From Novipirellula aureliae (GTDB lineage: Bacteria; Planctomycetota; Planctomycetia; Pirellulales; Pirellulaceae): DNA of 64,000 nt. Position 1 is the stretch's first letter, and every line of letters starts with the position of its first letter. The position numbers and the translations under genes were made by a program. The notes beneath the pieces were generated by a model, which worked only from the letters and a program-made list of their open reading frames with translations, was not told where the DNA came from and did not search any database. Shown here piece after piece: positions 50,152-63,558 of this stretch. Location of the stretch: NCBI RefSeq assembly GCF_007860185.1, contig NZ_SJPY01000005.1, positions 186,001 to 250,000 on the forward strand. The letters are read 5' to 3'.

Positions 50152-50295
50152 CTTGTTCAGGCTTCCTTGATCAGTATTTGCAGCTACAAGTCGTGCCATC
50201 ATCGGCACCTGATGCGAGTGCGGGTACCTTTCCACGACGATTATGAACATCTAATACGAAATAGCGATATCGGTTGCTGATCCAGCCCGAAAAAC

Positions 50296-50331
50296 AAACG
50301 CCCGCGGGGGATTTCTCCTCTGCGGGCGTTT
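50296..50331. terminator. Intrinsic terminator, copy A
   Basis: AAACGCCCGC ... GCGGGCGTTT hairpin with a GGGGGATTTCTCCTCT middle; usable from both strands. It ends the mcrBC unit. Same hairpin at 53238 and 58557. Confidence 0.7.
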
Positions 50332-50341
50332 CGGTTGTGCC

Positions 50342-50383
50342 GTAAGCTTCTAGCTTGCGATTGTTGGCAAGCAGGATGCTTAC
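50342..50383. repeat. 42-bp imperfect palindrome, copy 1
   Basis: GTAAGC-TTCTAGCTTGC ... GCAAGCAGGATGCTTAC. A near-identical copy is at 58605-58646, each directly beside a terminator of the same type. I believe this hairpin recurs in Pirellulaceae genomes (memory, unchecked). Confidence 0.75.
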
Positions 50384-50389
50384 CCCACG

Positions 50390-50438
50390 TTACAGTTCGA
50401 CGGATTCGAAGATCGCGGACGAAGCGGGATGCGTCTAG
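50390..50438 (-). pseudogene. Fragment of a TROVE gene 3' end, copy A
   Basis: Opposite-strand reading gives LDASRFVRDLRIRRTV, matching the last residues of the TROVE gene at 58653 ([15 protein letters not shown]) except for one extra base that destroys the stop. With the terminator and palindrome beside it, 50296-50438 is a copy of 58557-58700. The remaining bases to 50723 hold no gene; a half-copy of the GATCTT..AAGATCCACCAC repeat lies near 50685-50707. Confidence 0.65.
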
Positions 50439-53178: not shown

Positions 53179-53237
53179 AGCCAACTGAGACACTATCGCC
53201 ACGCATCGGTTCAGTACAGCGTCCTCAGGGCAAACAA

Positions 53238-53274
53238 AAAACGCCCGCAGTGGATTGCTCCTCCGCGGGCGTTT
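53238..53274. terminator. Intrinsic terminator, copy B
   Basis: AAAACGCCCGC ... GCGGGCGTTT hairpin with a GTGGATTGCTCCTCC middle, nearly the same as copies A and C. Lies upstream of the 52363-53178 gene on its strand and would end transcription arriving from the right. Confidence 0.65.
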
Positions 53275-53294
53275 CGGTTTGTTCGACTTTCGAC

Positions 53295-53386
53295 TTACAG
53301 TTCGACGGACTCGAAGATCGCGGACGAAGCGGGATGCGTCGTTTTCTAGGAACGATTGGCAAACGTTGAACACGGCGTCACTGAAG
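53295..53386 (-). pseudogene. Fragment of a TROVE gene 3' end, copy B
   Basis: Minus-strand reading gives [20 protein letters not shown], then FVRDLRVRRTV, aligned with [20 protein letters not shown] of the intact TROVE gene. It carries the same extra base as copy A before the stop. Longer than A (~30 codons) and diverged, so it derives from a lost paralogue rather than a recent duplication. Confidence 0.7.
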
Positions 53387-58652: not shown

Positions 58653-60347
<1,695 letters not shown>

Positions 60348-60418: not shown

Positions 60419-60430
60419 GGCGAAGTAAAA

Positions 60431-60555
60431 ACTCACTCGGCGAAGTGTTGGTCAGAGAACCCGTGACGCTTTCGAGAAAGCTAACGGGACGGGACTCGAA
60501 CCCGCTAAACCTTTCGGTCATTTGCCATGTACTCCGAACCGGCAGCCGAGTGTGT
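60431..60555 (-). ncRNA. Candidate Y RNA 1 (capped acceptor stem and T-arm, no clear D-arm)
   Basis: On the minus strand the RNA starts CACTCGGC and ends GCCGAGTG, an 8-bp closing stem. The 5' strand continues GCTGCCGGTTCGGAGTACAT and the 3' strand ends CTCTGACCAACACTTCGCCG; both motifs are shared with the other five candidates. Inside are a short hairpin ACC-GAAA-GGT, then T-arm GCGGG-TTCGAGT-CCCGT. A stem CCCGT/ACGGG follows, extended by GCTTT-CTCG-AAAGC, which acts as a loop-closed acceptor stem. Acceptor ends are not free, so it is not a tRNA. Confidence 0.65.
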
Positions 60556-60643
60556 CTTGTTGCCGCGCGCCTCTGTCCAACGAAGTTAGGGCAGGAAAGC
60601 ACGCGGCGTATGATTTGCGTAAAATGAAGTAGTGATGCAAAAA

Positions 60644-60856
60644 ACGCGATCGACGAAGTTGTGACCAGAGGGTATTACGGTGCTCTACCACTGAGCTACG
60701 GCGCTGAAAAGAGTCTTGAGTTTTGAACCCTGAGACACGAGCGTTTTTACTCAGGTCTCACGACTCATCTCTCACGACTCGAATTGCGCCGGTGGGACTC
60801 GAACCCACGACACCCGGCTCCTGAAGCATGTACTCCGAATCGGCAGTCGATCGTGT
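60644..60856 (-). ncRNA. Candidate Y RNA 2 (permuted tRNA body with hairpin spacer)
   Basis: Closing stem of 8 bp plus two more pairs (CGATCGAC at 60647-60654 with GTCGATCG at 60846-60853). Transcript order: leader GACTGCCGATTCGGAGTACA, then anticodon 3' part AGCCGG, T-arm GTGGG-TTCGAGT-CCCAC, acceptor CGGCGC. Next come ~80 nt of GAGTC-rich hairpin, then acceptor GCGCCG-TA, D-arm GCTCAGTGGTAGAGC, CCG, and trailer CTCTGGTCACAACTTCGTCG. The halves are in the reverse order of a tRNA and the anticodon is replaced by leader and trailer. Confidence 0.7.
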
Positions 60857-60863
60857 GCGCTTT

Positions 60864-61136
60864 CTATTTCGTTTTCTTCTTCGCAGCCTTTCGCATTTGT
60901 TTCCAAAGCGACCGGCCGTTGTCCCGGTCAAGCCGGACGAGTTGTTGCTGTCGTGTGTCGAAAGCGATCAAGAGAAGTTTGAAGAGTGAAGGGTGAAGTT
61001 TGAAAAAAAAACAGGTTTGGGTGATTGCTTTCACACTTCTAACTTCACCCTTCAAACTTCCACTGATGTCTTCGCCTGCGATCCTGGCCGCGACGGTCGT
61101 CACGGGTTTGGATCGGCTTTCGGTTGTGGTTTTCAT
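60864..61136 (-). pseudogene. Small planctomycete protein with its centre replaced by a hairpin repeat
   Basis: 90 aa from ATG 61136. The start (MKTTTESRSKPVTTVAARIA, GEDI) and end (FDTRQQQLVRLDRDNGRSLW, KQMRKAAKK) fit a small planctomycete protein family I recognise, but the middle ~30 residues are translation of the palindromic repeat 60974-61060. The frame is preserved. Probably non-functional; it could still be translated. Confidence 0.5.
60974..61060. repeat. GAAGAGTGAAGG-type palindromic hairpin
   Basis: Left arm GAAGTTTGAAGAGTGAAGGG (from 60974) and right arm ending CTTCACCCTTCAAACTTC (to 61060) are imperfect reverse complements around a short centre. A sister hairpin is at 61287-61360. 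Confidence 0.7.
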
Positions 61137-61286
61137 GTTTCCGCAATCGTTAAAAGAATGAATTGTGCATGTGTGTTCTCTGCTGGACCGCGAGTATGGA
61201 TTACTCGCGGCCGGTCGTAATCGCGAAACAGGAATGTAAAACACGCATAGTTCAGTCTCTCGAGACGATTGGGGAATGGAAACGCC

Positions 61287-61360
61287 AGTGAAGAGTGAAG
61301 AGTGAATGGTGAAAGTCGTGTTCGTTTCACACTTCACCCTTCTCACTTCAAACTTCTCAA
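61287..61360. repeat. GAAGAGTGAAGG-type palindromic hairpin, second copy
   Basis: AGTGAAGAGTGAAGAGTGAA ... TTCACCCTTCTCACTTCAAA, imperfect reverse complements. Bases 61137-61373 hold no gene otherwise. Confidence 0.65.
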
Positions 61361-61373
61361 TGTCGTGTATGGT

Positions 61374-61510
61374 GGGCGACGAAGTTTGTGGCCAGAGGCT
61401 TTTTCCTGAGCTATCGGCGTTCCTTGCGGATACCGAGCGGGACTTGAACCCGCGACCTCGCCGCTCTCGCGACGCGCTCTAACCTATGTACTCCGAACCG
61501 GCAGTCGCCT
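61374..61510 (-). ncRNA. Candidate Y RNA 3 (permuted tRNA body, GCAA-capped acceptor)
   Basis: Closing stem GGCGAC/GTCGCC. The clearest case. Leader GACTGCCGGTTCGGAGTACA, then T-arm GCGGG-TTCAAGT-CCCGC, then acceptor strand TCGGTATCC, GCAA tetraloop, GGAACGCCGA as the other acceptor strand, TA, a D-arm-like GCTCAGGAAAAAGC, and trailer CTCTGGCCACAAACTTCGTC. The acceptor stem is a GNRA-closed hairpin. That prevents aminoacylation and matches the bacterial Y-RNA tRNA-mimic architecture. Confidence 0.75.
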
Positions 61511-61533
61511 TGTTCTGTGGTTGTTGTGTAAAA

Positions 61534-61735
61534 ACGATTGACGAAGTTTGTTAATCAGACGTTTCGATGCTCTACCAACTGAGCTACGAAGCGAAAAGAG
61601 ACTTGAGGTTTGAGTCCTGAGACCCGAGCGTTCTTACTCAGGTCTCACTGCTCATCCCTCACATCTCAAACTACTTCGGTAGGATTCGAACCCACGACAG
61701 TCGAGGTAATGTAGTCCAATCAGGCAGTCAATCGT
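61534..61735 (-). ncRNA. Candidate Y RNA 4 (permuted tRNA body with hairpin spacer)
   Basis: Perfect 9-bp closing stem ACGATTGAC/GTCAATCGT. Leader GACTGCCTGATTGGACTACA, T-arm GTGGG-TTCGAAT-CCTAC, acceptor CGAAGTA. Next comes a GAGTC-rich hairpin spacer (61598-61671) closely related to that in RNA 2, then acceptor CGCTTCG-TA, D-arm GCTCAGTTGGTAGAGC, and trailer GTCTGATTAACAAACTTCGT. The acceptor strands pair over six positions including one G-U. Confidence 0.7.
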
Positions 61736-61744
61736 GTGTTGTGG

Positions 61745-61815
61745 AGTTTTGAGTCTTGAGGGGTGAGTCTTGAGCGAACTAACAACTCGAGACTCGTGAC
61801 TCAGGACTCGCAACT
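61745..61815. repeat. GAGTC-type palindromic hairpin between RNA genes
   Basis: GAGTTTTGAGTCTTGAGG ... CTCAGGACTCGCAACTT, imperfect arms. Member of the family seen in RNAs 2 and 4 and at 61994, 63411 and 63676. Confidence 0.7.
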
Positions 61816-61827
61816 TCCTTTGTGTTG

Positions 61828-61902
61828 TGATCGGCCAGCGAAGGTTTTGAATCAGACGGTTCTTTAGCAAAGATGTATTCCGATTCGTCAGTTGGTCGAT
61901 CA
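61828..61902 (-). ncRNA. Candidate Y RNA 5 (minimal form, no tRNA body)
   Basis: 75 nt. The ends pair over 12 positions with two mismatches. 5' motif AACTGACGAATCGGAATACA and 3' motif GTCTGATTCAAAACCTTCGC align with those of RNAs 1-4, but only ~16 nt lie between them. Its 5' end begins 2 nt after the 3' end of tRNA-Cys. Confidence 0.6.
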
Positions 61903-61904
61903 AG

Positions 61905-61975
61905 AAACGCTGGTGGGAGTCGAACCCACTTAAACCGGGTTGCAGCCGGCCGCCTAGCCATCTGGCTCCAGCGTT
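61905..61975 (-). tRNA. tRNA-Cys (GCA)
   Basis: 71 nt. Acceptor AACGCTG/CAGCGTT, D-arm GCC-AGATGGCTA-GGC, anticodon arm GCCGG-CTGCAAC-CCGGT (anticodon GCA), T-arm GTGGG-TTCGACT-CCCAC, discriminator U as expected for Cys. Position 8 is G instead of the near-universal U. CCA is not encoded. Confidence 0.85.
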
Positions 61976-61993
61976 TTGGTAGTATTTAGGGGT

Positions 61994-62017
61994 GAGTCTT
62001 GAGTTGTGAGTCCTGAG
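61994..62017. repeat. Left inverted repeat flanking the first four-helix-bundle gene
   Basis: GAGTCTTGAG then TTGTGAGTCCTGAG; matches 21 of 24 positions of the reverse complement of 62404-62427. Together they would form a stem with the gene in its loop. Confidence 0.75.
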
Positions 62018-62032
62018 AAAAAAGGGTGACGT

Positions 62033-62392
62033 ATGCGGGATCATCGAAAACTACGAGCGTTTGAACTAGCAGATCAGCTTGTCATGTCTGTCTACTCAGC
62101 AACAAGGACATTCCCAAGGGATGAAATGTTCGGTCTGACGTCGCAACTTCGCCGAGCTTCCGTTTCGATTGCATCCAACATCGTCGAAGGATGTGCGCGG
62201 AACTCCGAAGCAGATTTCCTACGTTTCCTCGACATGGCACTTGGATCCATTCGAGAGGTCGAATATCAGCTGACCATCGCAAGACGGCTCGAATACACAA
62301 ACGGCGAGACCGCCGAACGACTTGCAAATCAAGCGGATGAGACAGCAAGGGTGCTCGCTGGTCTCATCCGTTCACTTCGCTCGTCAACTTGA
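62033..62392 (+). CDS. Four-helix-bundle protein (23S rRNA intervening-sequence type), copy 1
   Basis: 119 aa. MRDHRKLRAFELADQLVMSV, then FGLTSQLRRASVSIASNIVE, GCARNSEADFLRFLDMALGS and REVEYQLTIARRL is the S23/IVS-protein family (TIGR02436-like). It was first known from ORFs within intervening sequences of 23S rRNA, where it sits inside an RNase III-cleaved stem. Function unknown. Here it is coded opposite to the RNA genes and lies between inverted repeats 61994-62017 and 62404-62427. Confidence 0.9.
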   Translation: MRDHRKLRAFELADQLVMSVYSATRTFPRDEMFGLTSQLRRASVSIASNIVEGCARNSEADFLRFLDMALGSIREVEYQLTIARRLEYTNGETAERLANQADETARVLAGLIRSLRSST

Positions 62393-62403
62393 TCCTCACA
62401 CGA

Positions 62404-62427
62404 CTCAGGACTCATCCCTCAAGACTC
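62404..62427. repeat. Right inverted repeat flanking the first four-helix-bundle gene
   Basis: CTCAGGACTCATCCCTCAAG then ACTC, partner of 61994-62017. Confidence 0.75.
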
Positions 62428-62472
62428 GTTTCAGTCTTCAGTCTCTAAAAGTAGTCGTCGCGATTGACTCCA

Positions 62473-62637
62473 TCACAGACGCCCCGATCGTAGGCAACAA
62501 CGTTTGAACCGCTGACCGCTGCCGCATGGGCACAGGTCGTTGCGGCCGAGTTTTTCCTCGAGTTGCTTGCCTTGGATGATTCGGACTCCGCGTTTGACTT
62601 TCGTTTCTGACGGGTAGCCTTTACGACGTTTGCTCAT
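62473..62637 (-). CDS. SEC-C-motif small protein
   Basis: 54 aa from ATG 62637 ([20 protein letters not shown]). The end [19 protein letters not shown] is a complete SEC-C zinc motif (CxCxnCC). Such motifs bind zinc and often nucleic acid or ribosomes. The 11 extra upstream codons in the open frame lack similarity. It lies between the two tRNA/Y-RNA/four-helix units. Confidence 0.75.
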
Positions 62638-62732
62638 TGGCTCGAAAGCATTGGGCGTTGTCGTCATCATACAGGTGTTCGTATCGCATTGTTCTACTCC
62701 GGTTTGAGTGTGAAAGTGTTGTGTTATGCAAA

Positions 62733-62805
62733 GACCAATCGGCGAAGGGACAACTCAGATGGTTCACATTTTCAAGATGTAATCAGAGTCTGCAGTCGAT
62801 CAGTC
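62733..62805 (-). ncRNA. Candidate Y RNA 6 (minimal form, no tRNA body)
   Basis: 73 nt. Ends GACTGATCGAC and GCCGATTGGTC pair over 11 positions with one mismatch. Inside, GACTGCAGACTCTGATTACA and ATCTGAGTTGTCCCTTCGCC follow the leader and trailer pattern of the family. It lies 2 nt downstream of the tRNA-like gene at 62808, exactly as RNA 5 follows tRNA-Cys. Confidence 0.55.
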
Positions 62806-62807
62806 AG

Positions 62808-62878
62808 AAACGCCGGTGGGAGTCGAACCCACTTCGATCCGCCGAGGGCGGATTGCCCAGCCATCTGGCTCCAGCGTT
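62808..62878 (-). tRNA. tRNA-Cys-derived tRNA-like gene with a collapsed anticodon loop
   Basis: 71 nt, same arms as tRNA-Cys 61905 (acceptor AACGCTG/CGGCGTT, identical T-arm, U discriminator, G8). The anticodon arm is ATCCGCC-CTC-GGCGGAT, a 7-bp stem closed by three bases. A 7-nt loop reading would give anticodon CTC (Glu), but position 33 is C, not U. Probably not a decoding tRNA: pseudo-tRNA, mimic or decoy. Confidence 0.55.
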
Positions 62879-62930: not shown

Positions 62931-63290
62931 ATGCGAGATCACAGAAAACTGCGAGCGTTTGAGTTGGCCGATGAATTGGTTTTGGACTTGTACCGTGCTA
63001 CCAAGACATTTCCGCGTGAGGAAATGTTCGGGCTAACATCTCAACTTCGTCGGGCAACCGTTTCGATTGCATCCAACATCGTCGAAGGTTGCGCTCGCCA
63101 ATCGCAAGCGGACTCCGTCCGTTTCCTCGACATGGCGTTCGCCTCCGCACGCGAAGTCGAGTATCAACTCAGCATCGCAGCTAGACTCGAATACCTACCC
63201 GCCGATGTCGCCACGAGACTCAACGACAAAGTCGTCGAAACATCGAAGGTCACGTATGGGCTCCTCAAATCGCTTCGCAGCGATTCTTGA
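62931..63290 (+). CDS. Four-helix-bundle protein (23S rRNA intervening-sequence type), copy 2
   Basis: 119 aa, the same length as copy 1 and clearly paralogous (MRDHRKLRAFELADELVLDL, FGLTSQLRRATVSIASNIVE, GCARQSQADSVRFLDMAFAS). Preceded by GGAGGAATGAA just before the ATG. With tRNA-like 62808 and Y RNA 6 it repeats the order Y RNA, tRNA, four-helix gene seen at 61828-62392. A block of about 0.55 kb was therefore duplicated. Confidence 0.9.
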   Translation: MRDHRKLRAFELADELVLDLYRATKTFPREEMFGLTSQLRRATVSIASNIVEGCARQSQADSVRFLDMAFASAREVEYQLSIAARLEYLPADVATRLNDKVVETSKVTYGLLKSLRSDS

Positions 63291-63312: not shown

Positions 63313-63331
63313 CGGACTATCAACTATCGAG

Positions 63332-63404
63332 TGCTCTCGCCAGGAATCGAACCTGGTCTACGACCTTCGCAAAGTCGCGTGCTAATCCGGCACACTCCGA
63401 GAAC
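63332..63404 (-). tRNA. tRNA-Arg (GCG)
   Basis: 73 nt. Acceptor GTTCTCG/CGAGAGC, D-arm GTGT-GCCGGATTA-GCAC, anticodon arm CGACT-TTGCGAA-GGTCG, T-arm CCAGG-TTCGATT-CCTGG, discriminator A. Anticodon GCG (codon CGC) is unusual, since most bacteria read CGN with ACG. Position 8 is G and position 14 G. No encoded CCA. Confidence 0.8.
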
Positions 63405-63478: not shown

Positions 63479-63485
63479 TAATCAG

Positions 63486-63558
63486 TAACCCGCCCAGGAA
63501 TCGAACAAGCGTCCGACAGTTTCGAAGACTGTCATGCTATCCAGCACACCCGCGAGTC
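63486..63558 (-). tRNA. tRNA-Arg (TCG), T-stem damaged
   Basis: 73 nt. Acceptor GACTCGC/GCGGGTT (two G-U), D-arm GTGT/GCAT, anticodon arm ACAGT-CTTCGAA-ACTGT (anticodon TCG). T-arm GCTTG-TTCGATT-CCTGG has three mismatched positions, and position 8 is G. Either a decaying tRNA or a non-canonical one. Confidence 0.65.

Follow-up and report, generated by a model that had tools for sequence, protein, structure and literature searches.

The 64,000-nucleotide stretch of the Novipirellula aureliae genome analysed here (contig NZ_SJPY01000005.1, positions 186,001 to 250,000; the window) very probably holds a bank of Y RNAs. Six elements, E1 to E6, lie on the minus strand directly upstream of rsr, the gene for a Ro60/TROVE protein (Rsr), at the end of a tRNA array. 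Each member appears to form a common handle from its two ends, consisting of an outer stem, an internal loop and an inner stem (bulged in the aligned classes), and each handle would display one exchangeable head. In the window, the predicted heads are tRNA bodies joined through the anticodon loop (E2 and E4) or the D-loop (E3), the upper half of a tRNA (E1) and anticodon stem-loops (E5 and E6); in relatives, further candidate heads copy helices H69–H72 of 23S rRNA and the sarcin-ricin loop. Judging from sequence, we consider it reasonably probable that the bank serves the neighbouring Rsr and that its heads act as Ro-bound adaptors for proteins recognizing the copied RNA parts.

Detection and distribution of the Y-RNA elements

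Six minus-strand elements had been proposed here in an initial annotation made from the letters of the window, and a weight-matrix scanner with terms for the 5' core, the 3' core, the outer stem and the inner stem found all of them in the same places. The training set of this scanner, 159 candidates from the loci, included the long window elements. Applied to the 5.5 kb that precede rsr, it returned exactly E1–E6 (scores 39.8–72.1), and it gave no match of 15 or more in 727,560 bases of Markov-resampled control. An untrained and cruder first scanner (fuzzy 5' core, outer stem and inner duplex) recovered only the four long elements E1–E4, at scores of 16.1–21.4, with one control match of 11 per 168,000 bases. 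A simple regular-expression pass gave many false matches, and the scanners were used in its place. By the scanner, the ends of all six elements form a stem followed by an internal loop and an inner stem; the elements adjoin rsr (58653–60347, minus strand); and E2, E3 and E4 contain a tRNA-like module closed at the acceptor.

Scoring against the Rfam models, which the initial annotation had proposed as a check, was informative for half of the elements. In E-value mode, YrlA matched E4 (41.9 bits, E = 4.8e-7) and E3 (23.1 bits, E = 0.13), and YrlB matched E6 (23.6 bits, E = 0.21), whereas no Y-RNA match was returned for E1, E2 or E5. At the gathering level, the whole window gave no Y-RNA match. 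Since E3, E4 and E6 fall below the gathering scores (69 for YrlA, 97 for YrlB), the elements are Y RNAs by anatomy and are not filed under the Rfam YrlA and YrlB models. The YrlA search of the window's own genome also gave extra weak matches upstream, and those inspected sit on tRNA genes of the array, whose neighbours the model reads as permuted. Below-cut-off matches were likewise obtained in 13 of 14 control genomes; thus, YrlA matches of such strength prove little by themselves.

The association with rsr extends to relatives. Within the family, 59 of 149 genomes, including the window's own, have Rsr matches (E ≤ 1e-20, fragments counted); Rhodopirellula, Rubripirellula and Neorhodopirellula are among the named bearers. 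At least one Y RNA lies upstream in 43 of the 49 rsr loci examined, some of which share a genome and many of which end at contig ends, with a maximum of 12 (locus L055); these numbers are minima for each locus, as L052 and L069 each lack a member that the first scanner had found. That scanner gave 184 distinct candidates over the relatives and 2 matches per 1.23 Mb of Markov control. The total reached 250 distinct candidates with the window's six counted in, some of them weak (Y006, 42.6; Y057, 42.0; Y239, 37.4). Of 392 genomes of the phylum, 20 contain the exact 5' core. Eight of these belong to another family of the class and carry three or four copies apiece; single matches elsewhere in the phylum may be due to chance. 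Among viral sequences, the IMG/VR contig IMGVR_UViG_3300049594_000559 (L116, L172) carries an rsr gene (69% identity) together with Y RNAs of the planctomycete kind. A viral scan with Rsr as the query returned no relative, a pattern scan of viral contigs found more than one match in 2 of 80 stretches among the matches listed, and the scanner found no Y RNA in the rsr region of Myxococcus phage Mx1.

Heads copied from tRNA and rRNA

The long members carry tRNA parts in differing arrangements. E2 (60644–60856, minus strand; scanner score 72.1) and E4 (61534–61735, minus strand; 68.1) are YrlA-type, with a tRNA body cut at the anticodon loop. E3 (61375–61509, minus strand; 70.9) holds a whole tRNA body cut in the D-loop, from which the handle exits; its anticodon arm is capped by GAGA and its acceptor by GCAA. 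E1 (60428–60558, minus strand; 70.2) has, by eye, a T-arm and a closed acceptor stem alone, with no D-arm, and the core of its closing stem is CTCGGC/GCCGAG. The initial annotation had described E2, E3 and E4 as cut at the anticodon, which holds for E2 and E4 but not for E3; the GCAA closure that it gave for E3 is present. E5 and E6 contain, in place of a tRNA body, a hairpin whose loop is anticodon-like. The further suggestion that different tRNAs are mimicked is borne out for E3, which is nearest to tRNA-Ile (array Ile-TAT, 32.5; core Ile-GAT, 29.4 and 29.2; next best, 24.8), whereas the likeness of E2 and E4 is generic (best Thr, 23.8 and 27.3, respectively). In some relatives, Y RNAs retain a whole anticodon arm (Lys, Asn), and the Y RNA at L043 7987–8112 is, by eye, apparently attached at the acceptor end.

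Both E2 and E4 have a palindromic insert, of about 80 nt in E4. The E2 insert is absent from 16 of 17 listed relatives and present in L060 alone, and the E4 insert is found in 0 of 14. Palindromes of the GAGTCTTGAG kind sit in the acceptor-closing loop in the window (60644–60856 and 61534–61735) and in L060 (11631–11841), and by eye they look like the spacers between array tRNAs.

Covariation was counted in four classes, those of E1, E2 and E3 and the rRNA-like class of relatives described below. In the E1 class (a cluster of 31 sequences from 31 loci, 25 of them aligned), 14 of 27 pairs changed on both sides, and 97.0% of cells were paired compared with 87.9% after shuffling. For the E2 class, the counts were 12 of 34 pairs and 98.4% compared with 93.8%, with 30–47% in slid controls; this alignment comprised 20 relatives (16 of 18 listed and four picked by eye) and omitted the window copy and L060 because of their inserts. 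Its structure consists of the handle, acceptor, T-stem, D-stem and a 3-bp remnant of the anticodon stem, and RNAalifold recovers these helices unaided, plus one small extra helix. The E3 class (11 sequences, window copy included) gave 12 of 36 pairs and 95.0% compared with 89.6%. In each of the four classes, none of 500 shuffles reached the covariation score, and the score was far above the slid controls. Covariation in homologues, whose absence the initial annotation had named as refuting its reading, is seen in the E1, E2 and E3 classes, and together with the relatives and the Rfam similarity it supports the multi-member bank with tRNA-like heads that had been suggested beside rsr. The anticodon-loop hairpins of E5 and E6, the upstream tRNA array and the rRNA copies in relatives go beyond that annotation.

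Members of the short, YrlB-like kind, among them E5 and E6, resemble anticodon stem-loops. E5 (61828–61902, minus strand; scanner score 52.6) contains the hairpin UCU-UUGCUAA-AGA; its minimum-free-energy (MFE) form has a 3-nt loop, and if two of its pairs are opened the loop UUGCUAA equals the anticodon loop of core tRNA-Ser(GCU). The MFE fold of E5 has a z-score of −2.85. E6 (62733–62805, minus strand; 39.8) has the MFE hairpin UACAU-CUUGAAA-AUGUG, in which CUUGAAA occupies a 7-nt loop and positions 33–38 are those of tRNA-Ser(UGA), with position 32 unlike the core gene. All 52 short Y RNAs (<100 nt) were folded, and their apical loops, either 7 nt long or opened to that length from 3 or 5 nt, were compared with the 80 distinct hexamers of core-set or array tRNA genes, a match requiring C or U as first base, U33 and shared positions 33–38. 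Such a loop is carried by 22 of the 52, compared with a mean of 0.335 and a maximum of 2 in 200 runs with the apical part resampled. The matches represent six anticodon types (Ser-GCU, 9; Ser-UGA, 6; Asn, 3; Pro, 2; Arg, 1; His, 1); because orthologues are included, the loop and cluster counts are not independent events. Under a strict test (exactly 7 nt, stem of at least 4), 10 of 52 matched compared with a mean of 0.365 and a maximum of 2, and Ile and Tyr were added. At what we judge by eye to be the position of E6, relatives carry CUGUUAA (L049) and UUGCUAA or AUUGCUA (the L058 group, in ambiguous register) in the same frame. Separately, a Y RNA at L294 1361–1449 with the hairpin CACC-CUGUUAA-GGUG resembles the Asn anticodon stem-loop and adjoins an rRNA-type Y RNA with the H69 loop. 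The notion that an array lacks the copied tRNA was dropped, as the L058 array holds both Ser-GCT and Ser-TGA.

Short members also abut tRNA genes. E5 begins 1 nt past the 3' end of a tRNA-Cys (GCA) gene (61904–61975, minus strand; ARAGORN; Rfam tRNA, 49.4 bits), and this abutment recurs in relatives. E6 begins 1 nt past a tRNA-like gene (62807–62878, minus strand) that is, by eye, a copy of the tRNA-Cys gene; ARAGORN calls it Glu-CTC, and its loop, CCCTCGG, lacks U33. Across 26 loci and 172 Y RNAs considered, there are 26 locus–Y RNA pairs in which the Y RNA starts 0–3 nt past a tRNA, and in 22 of these the tRNA is tRNA-Cys. The pairs come from three families, and the abutting Y RNAs are all short members. 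This arrangement is consistent with release of the Y-RNA 5' end by tRNA 3' processing. The array, the bank and rsr may share one transcript, within which such processing could liberate the 5' ends of the short members.

Heads of the rRNA type were found in relatives and none within the window. One cluster, 24 of the 250 candidates from 24 loci in three families, has heads resembling 23S helices that we take to be H69–H72, and three more were found later. In most of them, as assigned by eye, the 3' strand of H69 and CCUAAGGUAGCGA come first, then a short-capped hairpin resembling H71, a strand resembling H70, a GUCUC hairpin resembling H72 and, last, the 5' strand of H69, with the handle exiting from the H69 loop. 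These heads have 23S sequence and its helices in order apart from the cut. The rRNA-type Y RNAs of L239, L294 and L055 retain the H69 loop itself, UAACUAUGA. In the class alignment (18 of 24 sequences), 23 of 38 pairs changed on both sides, three of them in the H69 helix, and 94.8% of cells were paired compared with 81.0% after shuffling. A covariance model of 16 of the 24 heads matches the window genome's own 23S rRNA with E = 2.1e-5 (next unrelated match, 0.25), and one chosen head, from L294, aligns locally to 23S positions 1896–1960 with a score of 26.5 compared with at most 16.5 in 300 shuffles. When the 184 first-scanner candidates were run through BLAST, 16 rows matched the 23S rRNA of the window's genome at E ≤ 0.05, 12 of them at the H69–H72 site, and 920 shuffled copies gave 21 rows. 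The L239 head matched 20 records of a phage collection over a short stretch (29 nt at 96.6% in those listed), and three of eight listed records are annotated as 23S rRNA.

The sarcin-ricin core GUACGAGAGGA stands on a short handle in two banks from different families (L064 and L292/L295), in short Y RNAs at L064 11440–11514 and L295 1479–1546. Exact sarcin-ricin patterns occurred in 1 of 241 and 2 of 397 genomes, so these copies are rare; one of the latter two, in L296, is not a Y RNA by the scanner.

Tethering, baiting and other explanations

Our results suggest a model in which the handle would be gripped by Rsr and the head would bind a protein that normally reads the copied RNA part. That the heads engage such proteins at all we regard as likely; predicted partners are enzymes of tRNA or rRNA processing, modification, decay or repair. 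One Ro ring could in this way be tethered to many partners, as with Rsr, Y RNA and PNPase in Deinococcus. The absence of the anticodon in E1–E4 and the loss of the H69 loop from most rRNA heads favour tethering, whereas the intact anticodon loops and their turnover favour baiting. On balance, tethering seems to us somewhat the likelier, and baiting a plausible but lesser candidate.

Several observations weigh against tethering by RNA mimics. Swapping of anticodon loops between lineages is hard to explain if heads only recruit partners, and excerpts of PMC8394870 demonstrate a tether only for PNPase in one other bacterium. In the E3 class, the D-stem hardly varies, and 31 of 500 shuffles did as well as the alignment on pair types, one of the five measures. 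RNAalifold favours a fold of this class without the inner stem of the handle and the D-stem, so the placement of the E3 cut rests on the counted structure. The single-sequence folds of E3 (z = −1.79) and E6 (z = −1.26) are weak, and three rRNA-type pieces of 145–146 nt, with the 3' handle omitted, fold no more stably than shuffles (z = +0.91, −1.12 and −1.17). The match of the rRNA model to 23S rRNA rests mainly on its first 20 positions, the middle 39 being skipped. Finally, under the strict anticodon-loop test, 13 of 198 long Y RNAs matched compared with a control mean of 2.9 and a maximum of 11.

The strongest rival is a decoy bank, in which heads would bait enzymes attacking translation RNAs (anticodon nucleases, or enzymes of the sarcin-ricin loop or H69 region), Rsr would stabilize or dispose of the bait–enzyme complex, and array tRNAs would replace the losses. 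We consider this joint scenario rather unlikely. In its favour, the heads copy anticodon loops whose anticodons are intact, a sarcin-ricin core in two banks, and H69–H71, all of which we take to be known attack sites, and a kptA-type gene follows rsr here. The loop also differs between lineages (CUUGAAA, CUGUUAA, and UUGCUAA or AUUGCUA) at one position judged orthologous by eye. In addition, excerpts of PMC12803027 regard tRNA arrays as putative antidefence, and those of PMC7790460 propose YrlA as a competitive inhibitor of an anticodon nuclease. However, E1–E4 have no anticodon loop, most rRNA heads have lost the H69 loop to the handle, and kptA was found at no more than 6 of 40 further loci, of which several are short. 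The same excerpts of PMC7790460 report that YrlA fragments were undetected in Salmonella, implying that YrlA is not cut by that nuclease.

If the bank consisted of multiplied ordinary YrlA/YrlB pairs, with generic tRNA-elbow and hairpin modules, any likeness to particular tRNAs or rRNA would be incidental. The Rfam similarity, the very conserved T- and D-arm of the E2 class and the generic tRNA likeness of E2 and E4 would follow, but the anticodon-loop matches, at about 60 times the control with orthologues counted, and the 23S likeness conserved in several families make this improbable. We give very little credence to true circularly permuted tRNA genes yielding joined, mature tRNAs, which the initial annotation had named as its refuting alternative. 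E2 and E4 do show the order of T-arm and 3' acceptor, spacer, and 5' acceptor and D-arm; nevertheless, no anticodon loop is left in E1–E4 that joined halves could yield, E3 is cut in the D-loop with its anticodon arm capped, the ends pair as a conserved, covarying handle, and by eye E2 and E4 have a 1:72 mismatch. Decay of tRNA genes in a degenerate array, with chance stems, is equally remote. Neighbouring tRNAs mostly score below core tRNAs, and planctomycete tRNA clusters are called degenerate in excerpts of PMC4807772, but we rejected this explanation because it is contradicted by covariation; the conserved ends and the empty scanner control also argue against it.

More broadly, we would put at even chances the proposition that Planctomycetes maintain a heritable, exchangeable library of translation-RNA mimics on a Ro60 scaffold, comprising tRNA bodies attached through different cut points, lineage-swapped anticodon stem-loops, 23S H69–H72 and the sarcin-ricin loop, with Ro60 as a general display platform working against or together with enzymes of the translation machinery. 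A shared handle with differing heads suggests a swappable toolkit of RNA mimics. Heads copying anticodon loops and rRNA centres would make the purpose of Y RNAs directly testable, since each head predicts its own partner. The bank would also connect Ro60 ribonucleoproteins with tRNA arrays, which have suggested roles under translational stress or attack.

Genomic neighbourhood and comparison with known systems

Rsr is a protein of 564 aa with a vWA_Ro60 domain (PF25045, E = 2.7e-13; PF05731, E = 4.2e-5). Its TROVE match is weak (23.4 bits, cut-off 23), and the vWA part contains DASGS, which agrees with what we take to be the MIDAS motif, DxSxS. Among solved structures, the closest by sequence is the Rsr structure 2nvo (E = 2e-18), presumably from Deinococcus radiodurans, and Ro60 (1yvp) matches with E = 3e-7. 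Downstream of rsr lie kptA, presumably an RNA-repair gene, a TacA-like antitoxin and a protein weakly resembling FR47 (below cut-off), followed by an NMN transporter, an AAA_28 protein that we label NadR-like and an ADP-ribosylglycohydrolase. Downstream of the intact gene, at 50290–50435 and 53232–53386 on the minus strand, are two displaced fragments that resemble the rsr 3' end with its flanking sequence (91% over 146 nt, most of it flank; 88% over 92 nt, with 46 nt more), and extra copies occur in L049 and L084 as well. Integration may have taken place repeatedly at the rsr 3' end, with kptA and the genes next to it as the cargo.

Upstream, the tRNA array forms a dense run of 28 ARAGORN genes on one strand (L009 4904–12538), counting the four window tRNAs; besides the two genes abutting E5 and E6, these are tRNA-Arg (GCG; 63331–63404) and tRNA-Arg (TCG; 63485–63558), both on the minus strand, and the array continues past the window. 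Covariance scores of the array tRNAs are mostly below those of core tRNAs. In relatives, 15 of 21 loci have 12–34 tRNAs in the fetched stretch and 6 have 0–3. The unit that recurs is the tRNA array, Y-RNA bank and rsr; the downstream genes vary. Within the array, two 23S rRNA-intervening-sequence (PF05635) proteins (62033–62392 and 62931–63290, plus strand) each adjoin a pair of tRNA and short Y RNA, which looks like a duplicated unit. A 278-aa protein without a Pfam match lies at L009 6785–7621 (minus strand) and recurs in 9 of 40 other loci at 83–94% identity, many loci being short. A serine recombinase and two RepB/ParB-type proteins lie upstream of the array (L009 13641–16974, plus strand); in L044 their relatives follow rsr instead, an arrangement suggestive of movement or circularization of the unit.

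Y RNAs and their tRNA mimicry are already known. Y RNAs with a tRNA-like domain were reportedly described by Chen in 2014 and Wang in 2018. Excerpts of PMC8394870 describe this domain for YrlA as a substrate of DusA and TruB, and describe the tethering of Rsr to PNPase by a Y RNA. Degenerate tRNA clusters in Rhodopirellula strain P2 and other Planctomycetes are noted in excerpts of PMC4807772, whose main text, as available, mentions neither Ro60 nor TROVE. Among the best literature matches we met no account of such a bank, of anticodon stem-loop heads or of rRNA heads, a weak indication of absence given that the coverage did not extend to Chen 2014, Sim and Wolin 2018 or Wang 2018.

Parts of the bank resemble several known systems. 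Mimicry of rRNA in gene regulation was reportedly treated by Meyer in 2018, and the rRNA-type heads similarly copy rRNA parts, here on a Ro-binding scaffold and in relatives only. Y RNAs usually occur as one or a few per genome. E2 and E4 share with YrlA (RF02553) the terminal stem, the internal loop, the anticodon-cut tRNA body closed at the acceptor and the position beside rsr; the bank differs from YrlA in its many members per locus, in cuts that also fall in the D-loop and elsewhere, in members that keep anticodon loops, in scores below the Rfam gathering level and in the palindromic acceptor-loop inserts of E2 and E4. E6, like YrlB (RF02565), is a short Y RNA with one apical hairpin (23.6 bits), but here the hairpin resembles the anticodon stem-loop of a tRNA, and a tRNA gene directly adjoins the RNA. 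The dense array of some 28 tRNA genes recalls, from the accounts available, the tRNA array units of mycobacteria and phages and the Anabaena trn operon; in contrast to these, it ends in a Y-RNA bank and rsr. Finally, rsr with Y RNAs and an RNA-repair-type gene, here kptA, also characterizes the Salmonella rsr-yrlBA-rtcBA RNA repair operon as described in excerpts of PMC7790460, from which the present locus differs in having a tRNA array upstream, kptA rather than rtcBA next to rsr, and a bank of six Y RNAs.

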